Made by a program: the position numbers and the translations under genes. DNA of 41,746 nt from Candidatus Rokuibacteriota bacterium. Lineage in GTDB: Bacteria > Methylomirabilota > Methylomirabilia > Rokubacteriales > CSP1-6. This document shows positions 25,945 through 35,247 of the stretch, piece by piece. The stretch lies in the NCBI GenBank assembly GCA_030647435.1, contig JAUSJX010000137.1, forward strand, positions 1 through 41,746, in the 5' to 3' direction. Each line of letters begins with the position of its first letter. Within the stretch, counting starts at the first letter, position 1. A model generated the notes under the pieces. It was not told where the DNA came from. It made no database searches and saw nothing but the letters and a program-made list of their open reading frames with translations.

Positions 25945-26339
25945 CAGGCCTTGCCTTTGCTCATGGCGCGCGCGAGGAACTTCTCGAGGTTGGGCACGAT
26001 GAAGCGCTCGTGACGGCCCTCGGCGATCTTCTCCACCTCGTCGAAGACGTCCACCTGGAAGAGGCAGCGCTTGCCGTCGGTCTCGACGAGCGTCGCCTTG
26101 GCCCGCACCTTCATGCCGAGCGGCGTCGCCGCCAGGTGCTTCATCTCCACCGTGGTGCCGACGGTGCCGGCCCCCGGGGGCAGGTGGGAGGCGATGGCCG
26201 CCTGGGCGGCGGTCTCCATGAGGCAGACGACGAAGGGCGTGGCGTAGACGAGAACGCCCTTGTTGCCAAGCGCGTCGGCGGTCAGATCCTGGGTGACGAC
26301 CTGCTCCACTTCAGCGGTGAGCCCGACCTGGATGGCCAT
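25944..26339 (-). CDS. acyl-CoA thioesterase (fluoroacetyl-CoA thioesterase FlK-like fold)
   Basis: A 131-residue hot-dog thioesterase. The FlK-type catalytic positions are seen: Thr in YATPFVVCLMETAA, Glu in that same helix and His in VEMKHLAATP. It should hydrolyse an acyl-CoA that blocks or ends the pathway. It is the first gene of a three-gene run with the HadA/HadB-like pair. ATG 26339 has weak upstream purines (AGAGGG). Substrate is not known. Confidence 0.88.
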   Translation of the reverse strand: MAIQVGLTAEVEQVVTQDLTADALGNKGVLVYATPFVVCLMETAAQAAIASHLPPGAGTVGTTVEMKHLAATPLGMKVRAKATLVETDGKRCLFQVDVFDEVEKIAEGRHERFIVPNLEKFLARAMSKGKA

Positions 26340-27148: not shown

Positions 27149-28336
27149 ATGCCCGTCCTCCTGGCGGCAGCGGGTTTCCTGCTCGTCGGGCTCGACGGCT
27201 CCGTCAACATCGCCTTCCCCGCCATGTCCGCGGCCTTCCGGGTTGGTCCCACGACCATCCGCTGGGTCATCATCTGCTATGTCGGGACGTACGCGCTGAC
27301 CGCCTTCGCCGCCGGCGTGCTCGCGGACAGGCTCGGCCCGGGCCGCGTCGTGCGCGCGGGGCTCGTCCTCTCGCTCCTCTGCTTCGGGGCCTACGCGCTG
27401 GTGTCCTCCTTCGAGATCTTCCTGCTCCTCCGCGTGCTCCAGGGCGTGAGCGGCGGGCTGATCTACGGCGCCTCGCCCGCGCTCGTGACGCTCTCGCTGC
27501 CGTCCTCTCGCCACGCCTGGGGGCTCGGCTGGGTGAGCATGGGTCTCGGCATCGGCTTGAGCGTGAGTCCGATGATCGGCGGCGCGCTCGTGGGCGTCTT
27601 CGGCTGGCAGGCCGTGTTCCTCTACCGCGTGCCGGTCACCGCCGCGATCATCGTCCTGGCCGGCTGGACGCGCGAGACGCCTCACGATGGCCGCGGCGCG
27701 TGGCGGATGGTTGTGCCCGCCGACATCTTCCGCTGGCCGGTCCTCCAGGCCGGGCTCCTCGCCTTCCTCGCCAACTACGCCCAGTTCGCGGTGTGGCTCC
27801 TCGCTCCCTACTACCTCATCGGCGAGCGCGGCCTCTCCGCCGCCGCGGGCGGGCTCCTCTTCATGCTGACGCCGCTGGCGATGGCCATCGCGGCGCCCGT
27901 CGCAGGCCGCGCGGCCGACCGCTGGGGCGCGCGCGGGCCCATGGCCGTCGGGCTCGCGGCCGAAGCCGCGGGGCTTCTTTTCGTCGCCCGCTGCGACGGC
28001 TCGACGCCGATGGCGCTCGTCGGCGCCGCGCTCGCCCTCGTCGGGCTGGGAGTCGGCGTGTTCCAGGTGCCGAACCTCGCCCAGGCCATGGCCGCCTTTC
28101 CGCCGCGACAGCAGGGCGCTGCCGGCGGCTTCGCCTTCCTCTCGCGCACCTCGGGCGTCGTGGTCGGCGTCCAGACCGCGGCCTGGCTCTTCCACGACCG
28201 CGCGCAGATCCTGGGCTTCCTGCCGGCCTTCCGCTTTACCTTCGCCGCGGCGGCCGCCGTCTGCGCGCTCGCCGCGGTCATTTCGCTCGTGCGTGGACGG
28301 GAGCGGGCACCGCGTGCTACAAGGCACGAGGCATGA
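27149..28336 (+). CDS. MFS transporter 1 of the UGSC operon
   Basis: A 395-residue major facilitator with about 12 helices, the loop motif GVLADRLGPGRVVRAG and GRAADRWGARGPMAVG in the second half. The first helix carries LLVGLDGSVNIAFPAM, a pattern of the DHA2 (14-helix) drug exporter group, though this protein is short for 14 helices. The last codons overlap the next MFS gene (ATGA). It heads an operon that ends with the fused UGSC selenoprotein. The substrate is unknown; two carriers in tandem suggest uptake and release of related compounds. Confidence 0.9.
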   Translation: MPVLLAAAGFLLVGLDGSVNIAFPAMSAAFRVGPTTIRWVIICYVGTYALTAFAAGVLADRLGPGRVVRAGLVLSLLCFGAYALVSSFEIFLLLRVLQGVSGGLIYGASPALVTLSLPSSRHAWGLGWVSMGLGIGLSVSPMIGGALVGVFGWQAVFLYRVPVTAAIIVLAGWTRETPHDGRGAWRMVVPADIFRWPVLQAGLLAFLANYAQFAVWLLAPYYLIGERGLSAAAGGLLFMLTPLAMAIAAPVAGRAADRWGARGPMAVGLAAEAAGLLFVARCDGSTPMALVGAALALVGLGVGVFQVPNLAQAMAAFPPRQQGAAGGFAFLSRTSGVVVGVQTAAWLFHDRAQILGFLPAFRFTFAAAAAVCALAAVISLVRGRERAPRATRHEA

Positions 28337-29544
28337 GCCGCTACCGGTGGGTCATCCTCGGCGTCTGTCTCCTCGGCTTCATGCAGGTCCACATCCACCG
28401 CGTCGGCTTCGCCCCGCTCATCCCGACCTTCATGGGAGATCTCGGCATCACGTACGCCGCGGCCGCCACCATCATGACCGCCTACTTCTGGACGTATGCG
28501 CTGGTGCAGGTGCCCGTGGGCGTCCTCGCCGACCGGTTCGGGCCGCGGCGCATGATGCTGACCTTTCTCGGGATCCTCGTTGTCGGCGTGATCGCCTTCC
28601 CGCTGAGCCGCGACTATACGCAGAGCCTCGTCACGCGCAGCCTCATCGGGCTCGGCGCGGCGGGAGTCTGGCTGCCCGGACTCCGGCTCATCCACGAGTG
28701 GTTTCCGCCCCAGGAGCGCGGCCGGGCGACGGGGCTCTTCTCGGCGGGTGGCGGCATCGGCGGCACCGCGGCGCTGGTGCTGGTGCCGGTGCTGGCGGCG
28801 CATCTCGGCTGGCGGTGGGGCTACGCCATGACGCTGGTCCCGCTCCTGACCACGCTCGCGCTGATCTATCTCCTCGTCCGCCCGGGCCCGCTCGCCGAGC
28901 GGCGCTCCCCGGCCGCGGCCTCCCGCGGCACCACGGCCGTGTTAAAGGATGTGCTGAGCGTCGCCGCCCTGTGGCCGATCAACATGGCGGTGCTCTTCTC
29001 TTACGGAGCCTTCTTCGCTCTTGTCACCTTCCTGCCGGCCTTCCTCGTCAGGCAGGAGGGGCTGACGCCGGGCCGGGCCGGACTCGTCACCGGCCTCATC
29101 ACGGCGGGTACCGTGGTTTCTTGGCCACTCGCCGGCTTCATCTCGGATTGGGTAGGCCGGCGCAAGGTCATCTACCTCTTCAGCCAGGGCATGTGCGTGC
29201 TCTCGTGCCTGGCCTTCGCCCTGCTCGTCCCGGGCACGGGGTGGGCCGGCGCCGCCCTCGTGGCGCTCTTCACCGGTTTCATGCTGGGCGGGCTCGTGAC
29301 GCCCTTCGTGATGGTGGTCGAGCTGTTCCCCGCCGACCTCATCGGCACGGCCTCGGGCGTCGTCAACACGTTCTGCTTCGTGGGAAGCTTGCTCATTCCC
29401 GTGCTCGTCGGCAAGATACTCGACATGAGCGACAGCTTCCCGGCGGCCTTCACGGCGTGCGCGGCCTTCGAGGCCGTGGCGCTCGCGAGCGCCGCCTTCA
29501 CCCGTGAGACGGGAATGCACCGGCGCCCCGTCATGGTGACCTGA
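28333..29544 (+). CDS. MFS transporter 2 of the UGSC operon
   Basis: A 403-residue major facilitator with about 12 helices, VGVLADRFGPRRMMLTF in loop 2-3 and GFISDWVGRRKVIYLFS in loop 8-9. The N-terminus has a GFMQVHIHRVGFAPLIPTFMGDLGI segment typical of organic-anion (hexuronate-type, ACS-like) importers. It begins inside the last codons of transporter 1 and ends 2 nt before the ATG of the UGSC selenoprotein gene. Co-translation makes it a likely supplier of the substrate for the UGSC enzyme; the substrate is not identifiable. Confidence 0.9.
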   Translation: MSRYRWVILGVCLLGFMQVHIHRVGFAPLIPTFMGDLGITYAAAATIMTAYFWTYALVQVPVGVLADRFGPRRMMLTFLGILVVGVIAFPLSRDYTQSLVTRSLIGLGAAGVWLPGLRLIHEWFPPQERGRATGLFSAGGGIGGTAALVLVPVLAAHLGWRWGYAMTLVPLLTTLALIYLLVRPGPLAERRSPAAASRGTTAVLKDVLSVAALWPINMAVLFSYGAFFALVTFLPAFLVRQEGLTPGRAGLVTGLITAGTVVSWPLAGFISDWVGRRKVIYLFSQGMCVLSCLAFALLVPGTGWAGAALVALFTGFMLGGLVTPFVMVVELFPADLIGTASGVVNTFCFVGSLLIPVLVGKILDMSDSFPAAFTACAAFEAVALASAAFTRETGMHRRPVMVT

Positions 29545-29546
29545 CC

Positions 29547-31133
29547 ATGCGCATCGTCGATCCGATCGGGAGCAGCGCCGTCTCCGCCAAGTCCTTGGCG
29601 GCCCGGCCGCGCTCGCTCGAGGGCGTGACCATCGCGCTGCTCGACAACTCCAAGCCGAACGCGGGCGTCCTGCTCGAGCGCGTGGGCGCGCTCCTGGCCG
29701 CACGCGGCGGCGCCCGCGCGGTACGGGCATGGAGCAAGCCCGGCGCCTCGACGGGCGCCGCGCCGGCCGTCATCGAGGAGATCGCAGCCGCCGCGCGCGT
29801 CGCGCTGACCGCCTCGGCCGACTGAGGCTCCTGTACGTCGTGGAGTGTCCACGACGCCGCGGAGCTGGAGGCGAGGGGAGTAGCCTGCGTGGTGCTGGGA
29901 ACCGACGAGTTCATTCCGCTGGCGCGCGCCCAGGTGGCGGCCCAGGGCCTGCCCGGGCTTCCCATCGTCACCGTGCCGCATCCGATCGGCGGGATCCCGG
30001 CGGCGACCGCGGCCGCCAAGGCCGCGCCGATCGTCGAGAGCGTGCTGCGCGCGCTCACATCCGACCCTGCCGCGGCTGTACACGCGGCGAGCGCGGCCGC
30101 GGGCGACGTCGAGGCGCCCGACGATCTCGACCGCTTCCAGGCATGGCTGATGGAGCGGGGCTGGGGCGACGGCCTGCCCGCCATCCCGCCCACCCGCGAG
30201 CGCGTCGCGGCGATGCTCGCGGGCACTCGCAGGAATCCCGACGAGGTCGTCGCACTCCTGGTGCCGAGGCTCGGTAGGGCGACAGTCGAGGCCATAGCCG
30301 CCAACGCCGTGATGGCGGGGGCGCTTCCCGAGCACCTGCCCGTGGTGCTGGCAGCCGTCGAGGCCGTGGCAGACGCATCCTTTAACCTGCAGGCCGTGCA
30401 GACGACGACCCACCCCTGCTCGCCGCTCTGCATCGTCAACGGGCCGATCGCGGGGCGTCTCGGCATGAACGCCGGGGGCAATGTCTTCGGGCAGGGGACG
30501 CGCGCCAACGCCGCCGTCGGACGGGCGCTCAGGCTGGCGCTCCAGAATGTGGGCGGCGCGCGACCCGGCAAGGAGGACCGCGCCACCCACGGCCAGCCGG
30601 GCAAGTACGCCTACTGCATTGCCGAGAACGAGGCCGCGTCTCCCTGGGAACCGCTGTCCGTCGAGCGGGGTTTCTCCTCCCGGGACAGCACGGTGACCGT
30701 CTGCGGGTCGGAGGGGCCGCACAATATCAACGACCACGGCTCGACCACGCCCGAGGGTATCGTGACGACCGTGGCGGGGACGGCGGCGATCGCCGGCTCC
30801 AACAATATCTACCTGGGCGGCGAGCCGCTGATCGTCCTGGGGCCCGAGCACGCCGCGACCGCCGCGTCCTCCGGCTGGAGCAAGGAAGACTTCAAGCGCG
30901 CGGTGTGGGACAGGGCCCGCGTGCCGCTCGCGCGCCTGGCGCCGGAGAACATCGAGCGCTTCGCGACCATCTACCCGGAGGGCTTCAAGGACAGGCCGCC
31001 CGAGACGCTGGCGCCCATCGCGCGCGACTGGCGGGACGTCATGGTCATCGTGGCGGGCGGCGCGGGCAAGCACTCGGTGTTCATCCCGACCTTCGGCAGC
31101 ACGCGGTCGGTCACCCGACGCATCGCAGACTGA
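29547..31133 (+). CDS. UGSC-family selenoprotein fused to a UGSC-associated domain
   Basis: A 528-residue protein if TGA 29823-29825 is selenocysteine (residue 93), read in one frame without any other stop. Residues 1-165 are the UGSC domain: an LDNSKPNAGVLLERVG segment, then TASAD-U-GSCTSWSVHDAAELEARG and the VPHPIGG motif. Residues 190-528 are a large domain of unknown function with GWGDGLPAIPPT, NAVMAGALPEHLPVV, CIVNGPIAGRLG, GQPGKYAYCIAENEAASPW and SEGPHN. That second domain is homologous to the separate gene at 33662-34711. No signal peptide or membrane helix, so cytoplasmic. It follows MFS transporter 2 after 2 nt. The enzyme activity is unknown. A frame-preserving nonsense mutation is the alternative, argued against by the intact hairpin and by the second UGSC gene. 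Confidence 0.88.
29836..29856 (+). promoter_or_regulatory. bSECIS hairpin of the fused UGSC gene
   Basis: CGTCGTGGA (29836-29844) and TCCACGACG (29848-29856) form a perfect 9-bp stem with loop GUG. The loop G is 20 nt after the UGA. The geometry is identical to that in the second UGSC gene at 35009-35029. Confidence 0.8.
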
Positions 31134-31148
31134 TCAGCGACGCCCGCC

Positions 31149-31964
31149 TCAGCGTGAGACGGCCCCCTCGCGCAAACGCACGTCGTGCGCGCTGGCCGGG
31201 GCGCCGATGCCGAGGGCGCGAAAGGCCTCGACGAGAGACTGGTAGAGCTCGGGCTCGGCCGGGACCACGTCCACCACGCGGACCCATGCCCAGGCCGCGA
31301 TCTTGATCCCGGTGTCCTCCACGGACGCGATGCCCACGCTCGGCGCCGGGTCCTTCAGCACGCGCGCGCTCTGTGTCACCACCTGGCTGGCCGCGCGGAG
31401 CGCCGCGTTCAGATCCGTCGCGTGCGGCACGCGCAGCGTCAGCGTCAGCTGGCGGATGGTGCCGAAGTTGTGCAGGATCTCGCCGACGATCTTCCTGTTC
31501 GGCACGATGACGCGCGACATATCCGCCTGGATCAACGTCGTGGTGGAGAGCTCGACCGCGGCCACGTCGCCGCGCACGTTGTTGATCTCGATATACTCGC
31601 CGACCCGGAAGGGCTTGGTGAAGATAATGGTCAGGCCCGCCATGATGTTGCCCAGCACGCCCTGCAGCGCGAAGCCGATGCCGATGCCCGCCACGCCGAT
31701 GCCGGCCACCAGCGGCGCGATGGAGAAGCCGAACTTGTCGAGCGCCACCACGAAGGCCATGACCAGGACGAGGATCTTGATCACGCGGACCATGAGGATC
31801 CGCATGGGCGGCTCCATCTGCTGCTTCTGGAAGCGCTGGTCCGCCATCCCGCCGAGCCACCGCGCGACCAGGAAACCGACCGCAAGGATCGCGATGGCGC
31901 CCAACACCTGGAAGCCGTAGCGGAGCAGGAGCTCCATCGTCATCTCTTTCATGTTCATGTTCAT
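31149..31964 (-). CDS. MscS-family mechanosensitive channel
   Basis: A 271-residue small-conductance channel. Three transmembrane helices lie at about 10-35, 54-80 and 84-118; the pore-lining helix contains AGIGVAGIGIGFALQGVLGNIMAG, followed by the beta domain FRVGEYIEINNVRGDVAAVELSTTTLIQADMSRVIVPNRKIV and a C-terminal alpha-beta domain. It releases osmolytes under hypo-osmotic stress. ATG 31964 has GGAGG 6 nt upstream; the first residues MNMNMKEMTM contain several further ATG codons. It converges with the fused UGSC gene, leaving 15 bp between stops, and lies 33 bp after the glucan phosphorylase gene's end on the same strand. Confidence 0.93.
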   Translation of the reverse strand: MNMNMKEMTMELLLRYGFQVLGAIAILAVGFLVARWLGGMADQRFQKQQMEPPMRILMVRVIKILVLVMAFVVALDKFGFSIAPLVAGIGVAGIGIGFALQGVLGNIMAGLTIIFTKPFRVGEYIEINNVRGDVAAVELSTTTLIQADMSRVIVPNRKIVGEILHNFGTIRQLTLTLRVPHATDLNAALRAASQVVTQSARVLKDPAPSVGIASVEDTGIKIAAWAWVRVVDVVPAEPELYQSLVEAFRALGIGAPASAHDVRLREGAVSR

Positions 31965-31997
31965 GAGGGCCTCCTTCGAGGATGGCGCCGCAGCAGG

Positions 31998-33587
31998 CTA
32001 CGGCGCGGTGTAGAGACGGGTGAAATATTCGCTGACCATGCGGTTCGAGGAGAAGCGCTCGACGGCCATCGCGATCGAGGCGCGCATCATGCGCGCCCAG
32101 CGCCCGGGGTCGGCCCACGCGGGGAGCACGTCCCGCTCGAGGGTTGCGTAGAGGGCCTCGAGGTCGCGCGCGTCCTGGTCGCCCCCGACGCGCTCGTCGC
32201 CGATCGCCCAGCCGGTGACGCCGTGCTCGCACCCCTCCGGCCACCAGCCGTCGAGGATGGAGAGGTTGAGCGTGCCGTTCATGGCGGCCTTCATGCCCGA
32301 GGTTCCGCTCGCTTCCATGGGCCGCCGCGGGGTGTTCAGCCACACGTCGCAGCCTCGGGTCATGAGCCTGCCCAGCGCCATGTCGTAGTCCTCGAGGAAG
32401 ACGATGGACTCGGGCCACTGCCGGATTGTCTCGACGAGGAGGGCGATGACGGACTTGCCGGCCTGGTCGGCCGGGTGCGCCTTGCCCGAGAAGACGAGCT
32501 GGACGCGCCGGTCCTTGAGGAGCGGCGCCAGCCTGTCGGGGTCGCGCAGGAGGAGATCGGGGCGCTTGTAGGTCGCCGCGCGGCGCGCGAAGCCGATGGT
32601 GAGCGCGTCGCTGTCGAGCCTGACTCGTGTGCGGGCTTCGACTTCGGCCAGCAGCTCGTCCTTCATCTGCCGCCGCACGGCGCGGAGCGCGTCATCGTGA
32701 GCCGAAGCCGCCGCGGCGATCCGCGGGTCCTGCCAGGTGCCGCGGTGCACGCCGTTGGTGACGGCGATGATGGGCGCGCCGCCGTCCACGTGTGCCCACA
32801 TGGCGCGCGCGGTCTCGCCGTGGAGCTGCGCCACGGCGTTCGCGCGGCGGGCGAGTCTCAACCCGGCCACGGTCATGTTGAACGGATCGCCGCCGATCTC
32901 GCGCAGCTCGGCGTCCACGAGCTCGCAGCCCGCGCCGAGCCGCCGCAGGTCCGGAACGGCGTGGACCTCGTTGCCGGCGGGCACGGGCGTGTGGGTGGTG
33001 AAGACGATCTTCTCCCGCGCCTCCCGCCATGCCGAGTGGAAGTCCGTCCCGGCCTCCATCCGGTCGGTGATCAGCTCGATGCCGGCGAAGACCGCGTGCC
33101 CCTCGTTGAAGTGGTAGAGATCGACGGGAAGGTGGAGGGCGCGGAGCGCCCGCACGCCGCCGATGCCGAGCAGCATCTCCTGGGCGATGCGGCAGTCGGG
33201 TGCGGGGTCGTAGAGGCGGCGGGTGATCCAGCGGTCGCGCGTGTCCACCGACTCGAGCAGGAAGAGCGGCGCGATGGCGTAGCGGCCGACGCGCCAGACG
33301 CGGCACTCGACCTCGCGCGCGGCCACGCGCACCCGGACGCGGACGCCCGTGTCCGTGAGCGCGTCGGGCGGGTAGTCGCGCCACTCGTCGTATGGATACC
33401 CGTCGGGCCCGATCCGCTGGACGGTGTAGCCCTGCGCCCAGCGGAGGCCGATGCCCACGACGGGGAGGCCGAGGTCGCCGGCCGACTTCATGAAATCGCC
33501 GGCGAGGATACCGAGCCCGCCGGCGTAGGAGTGGAACTCCTCGTGGAGCCCGTACTCCATCGAGATGTAGGCGACGAGCGGCGTCAC
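31998..33587 (-). CDS. alpha-glucan phosphorylase (GT35, short form)
   Basis: A 529-residue short-type glucan phosphorylase as found in bacteria and archaea (the classical form is about 800). Matching segments are AYISMEYGLHEEFHSYAGGLGILAGDF at the N-terminus, FNEGHAVFAGIELI, VTNGVHRGTW, IGFARRAATYKRPDLLL and the PLP-binding motif EASGTSGMKAAMNG (Lys433). It should release glucose-1-phosphate from alpha-1,4-glucans. GTG 33587 lacks a clear ribosome binding site, but the first codons (TPLVAYISMEYG) align with the family start. Its 5' end faces the split UGSC operon, 74 bp away. Confidence 0.9.
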   Translation of the reverse strand: MTPLVAYISMEYGLHEEFHSYAGGLGILAGDFMKSAGDLGLPVVGIGLRWAQGYTVQRIGPDGYPYDEWRDYPPDALTDTGVRVRVRVAAREVECRVWRVGRYAIAPLFLLESVDTRDRWITRRLYDPAPDCRIAQEMLLGIGGVRALRALHLPVDLYHFNEGHAVFAGIELITDRMEAGTDFHSAWREAREKIVFTTHTPVPAGNEVHAVPDLRRLGAGCELVDAELREIGGDPFNMTVAGLRLARRANAVAQLHGETARAMWAHVDGGAPIIAVTNGVHRGTWQDPRIAAAASAHDDALRAVRRQMKDELLAEVEARTRVRLDSDALTIGFARRAATYKRPDLLLRDPDRLAPLLKDRRVQLVFSGKAHPADQAGKSVIALLVETIRQWPESIVFLEDYDMALGRLMTRGCDVWLNTPRRPMEASGTSGMKAAMNGTLNLSILDGWWPEGCEHGVTGWAIGDERVGGDQDARDLEALYATLERDVLPAWADPGRWARMMRASIAMAVERFSSNRMVSEYFTRLYTAP

Positions 33588-33648
33588 AGGCGAAAGGATA
33601 CGACAAAGCGCGCCTCGGCGCGAGCCTCGCGAAGGCGCCGGGCTGGAG

Positions 33649-33654
33649 TATAAT
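33649..33654 (+). promoter_or_regulatory. -10 box of the split UGSC operon
   Basis: A perfect TATAAT, then 7 nt and ATG 33662; the transcript would start at or next to the start codon. No ribosome binding site is visible. No good -35 is seen, but the 74-bp gap holds only this promoter. Confidence 0.55.
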
Positions 33655-33661
33655 CCCGCGT

Positions 33662-34711
33662 ATGACGACCCAACTCGCCTCCAAGCGCTATGCCGTCGAA
33701 GACCTGAACCACGCCATCGAGTTCTGCTACCAGCAGGGCTGGACCGACGGCCTTCCCGTCGTCCCCCCGACCGAGCGCGCCGTCCGCGCCATGCTGGACG
33801 CGGCCGGCCTCGAGCCCGACAAGCAGGTCGCCTTCATCACCAACCGCCAGGTCGCCGTCTCCGCCGAGAAGGTCGCGGTGAACGCCGTCATGGCAGGATG
33901 CCTTCCGGAGTACATGCCCATCGTCGTGGCGGCGGTCGAGGCGCTCGCCGAGCCGAAGTGGGGGTACCACGGCCCCGCCACGTCCACGGGTGGCGCCGCC
34001 GTCCTCATGATCGTCAACGGTCCCATCGCGGCCCGGCTCGGCTTCAACTCGGGCGACAACCTCTTCGGACCCGGCTGGCGGGCCAACGCCACGACGGGCC
34101 GCGCCGTCCGCCTGGTGATGCGCAACGTCATCGGCACGCTGCCGGGCGCGCTCGACCGGGGGACGGTGGGGCATCCGGGCAAGTACAGCTACGTCATCGC
34201 CGAGAACGAGGCCGACAGCCCGTGGACGCCGTTCCACGTTGAGCGCGGCTTCAAGGCGGAGCAGAGCGTGGTGACCGTCATGGCGGCGGAGGGGCCGCAC
34301 CAGTTCTACAACCAGCTTTCGAGCACGGCCAAGGGCGTGCTGACCTCGCTCTGCGACGACATGAAGCATCACGGCAGCACCAATGGCCAGCCGCAGTACG
34401 TCGTCGTGCTCGCGGGCGAGCATATGCGCACCATCGCCAGGGACGGCTGGTCGAAGGCCGACATCCAGAAGTTCGTCTTCGAGAACACGCAGAACTCGCT
34501 GGCGCACATCAAGCGCGTGGAGCGGCTGGCGGGGGCCGTGACCCCCGAAGACGAGACCACGATGCGGCCGCTCGTGCCGAGCCCGGAGGATGTGCACGTG
34601 ATCGCGGCGGGCGGCCGGGCGGGGGCGTTCTCCTGCTACATCCCCGCGTGGGCCGGCGGCAAGAAATCGAGCCAGAGCGTTTCGAAACTCATCCAGGACA
34701 GGAGGGCATGA
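33662..34711 (+). CDS. UGSC-associated large protein (stand-alone partner)
   Basis: A 349-residue protein homologous to residues about 190-528 of the fused gene at 29547-31133. Shared blocks are GWTDGLPVVPPTE, NAVMAGCLPEYMPIVVAAVEALAEP, IVNGPIAARLGFNSGDNLFGPGWRANATTGRAVRL, HPGKYSYVIAENEADSPW and AEGPHQF. The fused copy has Ala where this has Cys in VMAGC, so no cysteine is conserved between the two and this domain is unlikely to be the thiol partner. No signal peptide. Its stop overlaps the ATG of the UGSC selenoprotein gene. Function is unknown; gene coupling and the natural fusion imply a complex with UGSC. Confidence 0.85.
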   Translation: MTTQLASKRYAVEDLNHAIEFCYQQGWTDGLPVVPPTERAVRAMLDAAGLEPDKQVAFITNRQVAVSAEKVAVNAVMAGCLPEYMPIVVAAVEALAEPKWGYHGPATSTGGAAVLMIVNGPIAARLGFNSGDNLFGPGWRANATTGRAVRLVMRNVIGTLPGALDRGTVGHPGKYSYVIAENEADSPWTPFHVERGFKAEQSVVTVMAAEGPHQFYNQLSSTAKGVLTSLCDDMKHHGSTNGQPQYVVVLAGEHMRTIARDGWSKADIQKFVFENTQNSLAHIKRVERLAGAVTPEDETTMRPLVPSPEDVHVIAAGGRAGAFSCYIPAWAGGKKSSQSVSKLIQDRRA

Positions 34712-35247
34712 TGGCAGGCTTCGAAATCCTCGACCCGACGGTCGAGCCGCGGAAACAGGCGCTGACGTACGTGCCGAGGCCCGGCTCGCTCAAGGGCAAG
34801 CGGATCGGCCTCGTTGAGAACACCAAGTTCAACTCCGACAAGCTGCTGGCGAAGGTCGGCGAGATCCTCAAGAAGGAGTACGGCGCCGCCGAGTACAAGA
34901 TGTGGCGCAAGCACAACTCGAGCGTCCCGGCGCACGACGAGATCATCGACGAGGCGAAACGCGGTGTCGACTGCGTCGTCGCCGGCGTCGGCGACTGAGG
35001 GTCCTGCTCGTCGGGCAGTGTGCTCGACGGAATCCTGTTCGAGAAGGCCGGCATCCCCGCCGCGTCCATCGTGACCGACGTCTTCGAGGGCACGGGTCAT
35101 GCGATGGCCCAGTCCTGGGGCCTGCCGGACTACAAGTTCCTCTCGCTGCCGCACCCGATCGCCAACCTCAGCGAGGCGCAGCTGGACCAGCGGGCGCGCG
35201 AGATCGTGCCGGAGATCGTCAAGCTGCTCCTCCAGGGCCAAGAGTAA
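34711..35247 (+). CDS. UGSC-family selenoprotein (stand-alone)
   Basis: A 178-residue protein with selenocysteine at residue 96 if TGA 34996-34998 is recoded. It reads AGVGD-U-GSCSSGSVLDGILFEKAGIPAASI, then a VFEGTGHAM segment and LPHPIANLS. The N-terminal half has the GKRIGLVENTKFNSDKLLAKVGEIL block, matching LLDNSKPNAGVLLERVG of the fused gene. This corresponds to what databases call UGSC family (seleno)protein (from memory). AGGAGG lies 5 nt before ATG 34711, which overlaps the partner's stop. Cytoplasmic. The motif resembles the U-G-T-C of glycine reductase GrdB. An assembly error or stop mutation would have to have hit the same motif twice in this window, which is improbable. Confidence 0.88.
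35009..35029 (+). promoter_or_regulatory. bSECIS hairpin of the stand-alone UGSC gene
   Basis: CGTCGGGCA (35009-35017) and TGCTCGACG (35021-35029) form a 9-bp stem with one G-U pair and loop GUG. The loop G is 20 nt after the UGA, the same as in the fused gene, although several stem bases differ, with pairing kept. Confidence 0.8.

Follow-up and report, generated by a model that had tools for sequence, protein, structure and literature searches.

UGSC selenoproteins and a large partner domain, encoded in fused and in split form, are probably the halves of one enzyme in a Rokuibacteriota genome

In a soil bacterium, a Candidatus Rokuibacteriota, the UGSC selenoproteins are encoded beside a large domain of about 345 amino acids, named LG here as the partner of UGSC; since one module is hardly ever encoded without the other, both are probably parts of a single enzyme. 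The window, i.e. the whole stretch of 41,746 nucleotides that was analysed (contig JAUSJX010000137.1), carries both modules twice, once joined in a single protein and once as two overlapping genes (Table 1). We postulate, with a probability of roughly one half, that UGSC and LG make up, as its two subunits, a diversified catabolic selenoenzyme performing reductive carbon-heteroatom cleavage by selenocysteine (Sec) chemistry of the GrdB kind; its reaction, substrate class and reductant are those that we infer.

Table 1. Features of the window surrounding and within the fused and split UGSC-LG genes.
Feature	Position	Strand	Evidence
MFS transporter 1, 5' of the fused gene	27149..28336	+	PF07690 9e-60
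MFS transporter 2, ending 2 bp before the fused gene	28330..29544	+	PF07690 1.5e-63
Fused selenoprotein: UGSC domain residues 1-171, LG about 185-528	29547..31133	+	single frame kept by 26 relatives
Sec93 of the fused protein, in-frame UGA	29823..29825	+	
SECIS-like hairpin core, fused gene (CGUGGA-GUG-UCCACG)	29839..29853	+	covariation in 72 genes; fold
Stand-alone LG gene, 349 aa	33662..34711	+	AlphaFold2 residues 5-345: pLDDT 95.1, pTM 0.93
AGGAGG, putative ribosome-binding site for the split UGSC gene	34700..34705	+	read in sequence
Stand-alone UGSC selenoprotein gene, 179 aa, ATGA overlap with LG	34708..35247	+	
Sec97 of the split UGSC (residue 1 = ATG 34708), in-frame UGA	34996..34998	+	
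SECIS-like hairpin core, split UGSC gene	35012..35026	+	fold; covariation in 72 genes

That the same two modules occur twice, fused as UGSC-LG and split as LG followed by UGSC, was the starting claim of the first-pass annotation and is confirmed by reading frames and sequence similarity. The fused frame encodes 528 amino acids with one in-frame TGA (ASAD-U-GSCTSW) and no further stop between UGSC and LG. The ATG of the split UGSC gene lies inside the LG stop (ATGA), and its in-frame TGA has the context VGD-U-GSCSSG. The two LG copies are 44% identical over 347 amino acids (E 2e-89) and the two UGSC copies 32% (E 2e-29). Both UGSC domains belong to the UGSC family (PF24696/NF041046, the UGSC-containing protein of the GOS selenoproteome) and carry the same UGSC motif. 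The 172-position model of PF24696 matches the whole domain in each, at residues 3-171 of the fused protein (4e-48) and 5-174 of the split protein (6e-60). Against the NF041046 cut-off of 125 bits, the split UGSC scores 145.3 and the fused UGSC 124.9, just under it. An assembly or reading artefact, or chance, was rejected as the origin of the fusion, since the gene is preserved as a single frame, with just one TGA, in 26 other genomes at 59-95% identity.

The two internal UGAs resemble Sec codons, to judge from a covarying SECIS-like hairpin, the conservation of the UGA and the presence of tRNA-Sec and SelB in the genome (3 kb apart, contig C56), and we infer Sec incorporation at the protein level. 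Exactly one internal TGA is found in all 12 UGSC copies of the genome itself and in 34 of 34 copies from 14 other genomes of the class. Cys replaces Sec in only two UGSC proteins among the 92 stretches studied in detail. The hairpin, with the loop GUG, follows directly 3' of the UGA at a fixed distance and is 98.4% paired across 72 genes, a count that omits six divergent or UGSS-type genes with a differing downstream hairpin. Four of its six pairs show changes on both sides in these genes, and the covariation score reaches 0.245, compared with at most 0.033 in slid controls. The hairpin bases are also under coding constraint, yet a switch from C-G to G-C occurs at one pair that joins different codons.

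Across genomes, UGSC and LG are a near-obligate pair, and the notion that they rarely co-occur is refuted by two counts. Within this genome, LG lies no further than 1 kb from UGSC in 12 of 12 copies. A class survey covered 17 other genomes, 14 with UGSC and three without; LG adjoins 33 of the 34 UGSC copies in the former, the exception being cut off by a contig end, and is likewise absent from the latter. Loci fetched from several phyla, including named genomes of Rokubacteria, Dehalococcoidia, Binatota, Tectomicrobia, Nitrospinota, Proteobacteria and a Bacillus, contributed 86 pairs in which LG and UGSC share a strand and lie no more than 2 kb apart. Evolutionary distances among the LG sequences correlate with those among the UGSC sequences, both over these pairs (rho 0.49; highest of 1000 permutations, 0.20) and over the 12 paralogues of the genome itself (rho 0.75; permutation fraction 0.0005). 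Paralogue expansion has led to the 12 UGSC copies here and to as many as 16 LG-type matches in relatives.

Structure prediction of UGSC with its partner, run as the fused chain in AlphaFold2, gave confident packing (pLDDT 93.7, pTM 0.92) from an alignment of 82 rows, 30 of them fused. The pLDDT drops below 50 just in a short linker, residues 178-182. If the 175-aa domain were placed freely, a pTM near 0.7 would be expected by an estimate from domain sizes; the higher value points to a defined UGSC/LG interface in the predicted fused chain. A physical complex of the two proteins, as the first-pass annotation had anticipated, therefore appears likely on four counts: near-obligate adjacency, the fusions, the co-divergence and the confident fused model.

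The trees, built on 86 pairs, contain few changes of gene order, namely four on the LG tree and five on the UGSC tree. In these trees the fused copy of the window falls among UGSC-first genes and the split copy among LG-first ones; the two are thus old paralogues, derived from clades that differ in order. The earlier view that the differing order speaks against a simple joining of neighbours did not hold: UGSC-first split pairs are common elsewhere and in this genome (L117 twice, L118, L119), the fusion groups with them, and by this placement the fused gene is a joining of UGSC-first neighbours. All true fusions (the window, L121, L123, L076 and L084) are UGSC-first. Apparent LG-first fusions in L050, L086 and L084 were discarded, as their translation had run through UGA stops. 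In 14 of the 26 relatives the fused gene is followed by LG on the same strand, 0.1-1 kb on, and then by UGSC where the stretch reaches. The window has the same gene order, with two unrelated genes of the opposite strand, for a mechanosensitive channel and a phosphorylase, lying between the fused gene and the split pair. Taken with the adjacency in the relatives, this order suggests that the fused gene and the split pair probably stem from one ancestral transcription unit, operon-like and containing two paralogues.

LG itself has no match to Pfam and NCBIfam in the window, and 79 LG members gave just scattered single-member matches to these libraries. Sequence and profile searches of the PDB found nothing for LG. 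A Foldseek search of the PDB with the LG model found no match at E < 1e-3, with TM at most 0.27 among the matches listed; fumarase, cyanuric acid hydrolase and tubulin were rejected as fold matches (rmsd 6-20 Å). Two further identities were rejected by HHalign, namely a GrdE/PrdA pyruvoyl subunit (LG against PF09338, Prob 0.1) and the GrdB N-terminal region (LG against GRDB, PF07355, Prob 1.4). The sole PF09338 copy of the genome lies on contig C106, which is without UGSC copies; there, at positions 47718-50214, it adjoins a full GrdB-type selenoprotein (UGTCNRCG). The invariant residues of the 79 LG sequences include Asp25, Asn70, Arg143, Asn151, Glu177 and Trp184. Cys76 (NAVMAGC) is kept in 77 of the 79 and is Ala in the fused copy of the window (LG 30096-31130), its orthologues and L123. 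UGSC is missing from the flanks (2.6 to 8 kb) of at least four LG copies (L024, L045, L124, L125), so LG may also act alone in a Sec-independent role.

Profile comparison shows UGSC to be a stand-alone domain related to the C-terminal Sec domain of GrdB and PrdB. With a GrdB profile built from genomes of the same class, HHalign aligned UGSC to the C-terminal Sec domain with Sec on Sec (Prob 95.9, E 5e-9), the match extending over 93 columns, about half of UGSC. The PrdB-like selenoprotein family of these genomes also aligned Sec on Sec (E 2e-4, Prob 47.5), while the negative control, the UGSC profile against the pyruvoyl subunit family, gave E 0.02 and Prob 2.4. The fused sequence by itself showed a weak GrdB match at the Sec region, and the N-terminal GRDB region (PF07355) found no match in the window proteins. 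The Sec motifs vary alike, with UGSC and UGSS in the UGSC family and UGTC, UGTS and UGTG in the GrdB type, which we count in favour of our reading. The UxxC motif is kept in 55 of 61 UGSC proteins, and its cysteine is Ser in the other six. In the AlphaFold2 model, strands and helices alternate in the UGSC part and Sec follows strand 3; the structures that Foldseek matches to this part are flavodoxin-like, and the predicted fold is not that of thioredoxin.

GrdB, GrdF and GrdH, the selenoproteins B of glycine, sarcosine and betaine reductase (PF07355 plus the C-terminal Sec domain), share with UGSC a UGTC-type motif, an ERAGIP helix and an HPxG loop. In contrast to UGSC, GrdB possesses a 345-aa N-terminal GRDB region, to which LG is not detectably homologous, and the pyruvoyl-type PF09338 partner of Grd systems is unrelated to LG. 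As UGSC matches the GrdB Sec domain and LG is unrelated to the Grd subunits, the pair can be described as a protein B catalytic domain with a different partner. PrdB of D-proline reductase resembles UGSC in being a small Sec subunit with a separate large subunit, but its partner PrdA is a pyruvoyl proprotein of the PF09338 type, a family to which LG is unrelated. The fluoroacetate reductase FarACEB of Cloacibacillus porcorum likewise employs a GrdB-type selenoprotein for another substrate and has an MFS gene in its operon; however, it comprises GrdE/GrdB-like proteins and a radical SAM enzyme, and no LG is reported (PMC10838667). Many genomes of the class encode small PrdB-like selenoproteins with an in-frame TGA (UPICHQSGG, UGLCNQAVG).

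In glycine and proline reductase, the selenolate attacks a carbonyl-held substrate, and a thiol then cleaves the Se-C bond (PMC10298544). For UGSC-LG, made as one chain or as two co-translated chains, we propose that LG would bind and position or activate the substrate, standing in for the pyruvoyl subunit and the GrdB N-terminal region. The selenolate, at the N-terminus of a helix in the flavodoxin-like Rossmannoid UGSC, would attack the LG-bound substrate, resulting in reductive cleavage of a carbon-heteroatom bond, and the Se adduct would then be reduced by the UxxC cysteine or another thiol. Duplication would have produced the many copies per genome with their varied transporter and catabolic neighbours. 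The fluoroacetate reductase operon, composed of an MFS transporter and GrdE/GrdB-like genes with a GrdE-like protein lacking the pyruvoyl cysteines, shows that the Sec module can be re-aimed (PMC10838667).

The neighbours of UGSC-LG are MFS, TctC, SBP_bac_5, IclR, SDR, HIBADH, ECH and acyl-CoA dehydrogenase genes, with genes for NuoE/NuoF-type NADH subunits in some loci; MFS genes stand beside the fused gene of the window and beside the split pair of L009. These transporters, regulators, dehydrogenases and CoA enzymes fit a diversified catabolic enzyme. Neighbourhoods rich in CoA, hydroxyacid and transport genes would also suit non-redox selenolate catalysis on an organic acid (lyase, racemase or group transfer), with LG as the substrate domain, whose six invariant residues named above could form a carboxylate site; we regard this as unlikely, as the Sec homology points to reductive enzymes and the UxxC motif suggests a redox step.

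Conservation of UxxC could instead indicate a thiol/selenol oxidoreductase or peroxidase, in which a redox-active UGSC with its UxxC motif would dock with LG, and a Trx-like fold was called likely for UGSC by Zhang & Gladyshev in 2008 (PMC2398784). That proposal does not fit the predicted fold, which is flavodoxin-like rather than thioredoxin-like. Moreover, UGSS variants exist and the neighbours are transporters and catabolic dehydrogenases, all of which renders such an activity improbable. Metal, metalloid or organometal handling, as proposed for the SaoB/SaoC selenoproteins, is the least plausible reading: Sec/Cys pairs bind soft metals, a 2026 review suggests metal ligands for other orphan selenoproteins (PMC13188914) and a cation efflux gene lies near the Sec-type LG-UGSC pair of Bacillus piscicola FBU1786 (locus L011), but neighbour clusters and the Pfam tally contain no recurrent metal genes, and the many paralogues per genome have organic-acid-type neighbours.

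Some observations also count against the reductive catabolic selenoenzyme that we favour, namely the Ser at the UxxC cysteine, the Ala at LG Cys76 in the fused clade, the limited HHalign coverage of UGSC and the LG copies that lack a UGSC neighbour. In addition, many UGSC hosts appear aerobic, unlike the users of Grd. More tentatively, UGSC-LG might form a class of its own among selenium-dependent reductive enzymes, its partner having a fold unseen in the PDB. Having expanded in uncultured bacteria of soil and ocean, this class would cleave carbon-heteroatom bonds of many recalcitrant organic acids, possibly with oxygen present, and the fused and the split paralogue within an operon-like unit would act together.

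The literature found on UGSC offers no function, no partner family and a guess at a Trx-like fold, whereas the present analysis provides a near-obligate partner and a predicted Rossmannoid fold. A fusion of UGSC to a domain termed 'Unknown_1' was reported by Zhang & Gladyshev in 2008 (PMC2398784), and this domain may be LG. The absence of an assigned function, noted in the first-pass annotation, is borne out by the 2026 review (PMC13188914) and by Pfam and NCBIfam scans; its wording of an undescribed selenoenzyme system is too strong, as the fusion to an unknown domain had already been published (PMC2398784). New as far as the literature searched shows are the near-obligate partner, which has neither a named family nor a solved fold, the link to GrdB, the expansion of paralogues and the operon-like unit with both architectures. 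Few selenoprotein families are commoner than UGSC in aquatic metagenomes (PMC2398784); given a near-obligate partner, a link to glycine reductase and catabolic surroundings, UGSC becomes a testable enzyme. If our reading is true, selenium-dependent reductive cleavage extends far beyond its known occurrence in a few anaerobic fermenters of amino acids, and may be important for how resistant organic matter turns over in soil and in the dark ocean.

Two minor observations concern neighbouring genes. One UGSC-LG copy of this genome has a 242-aa protein without Pfam match between UGSC and LG (L118:7820-8545). In the window, a FlK-like thioesterase (PF22636, 9e-35; 25947-26339, minus strand) is encoded near a MaoC protein and a TauE-type exporter, in a group that is divergent from the MFS-UGSC operon and does not recur at other UGSC loci; because a fluoroacetate reductase exists, a FlK-like gene near a GrdB-type selenoprotein is suggestive.
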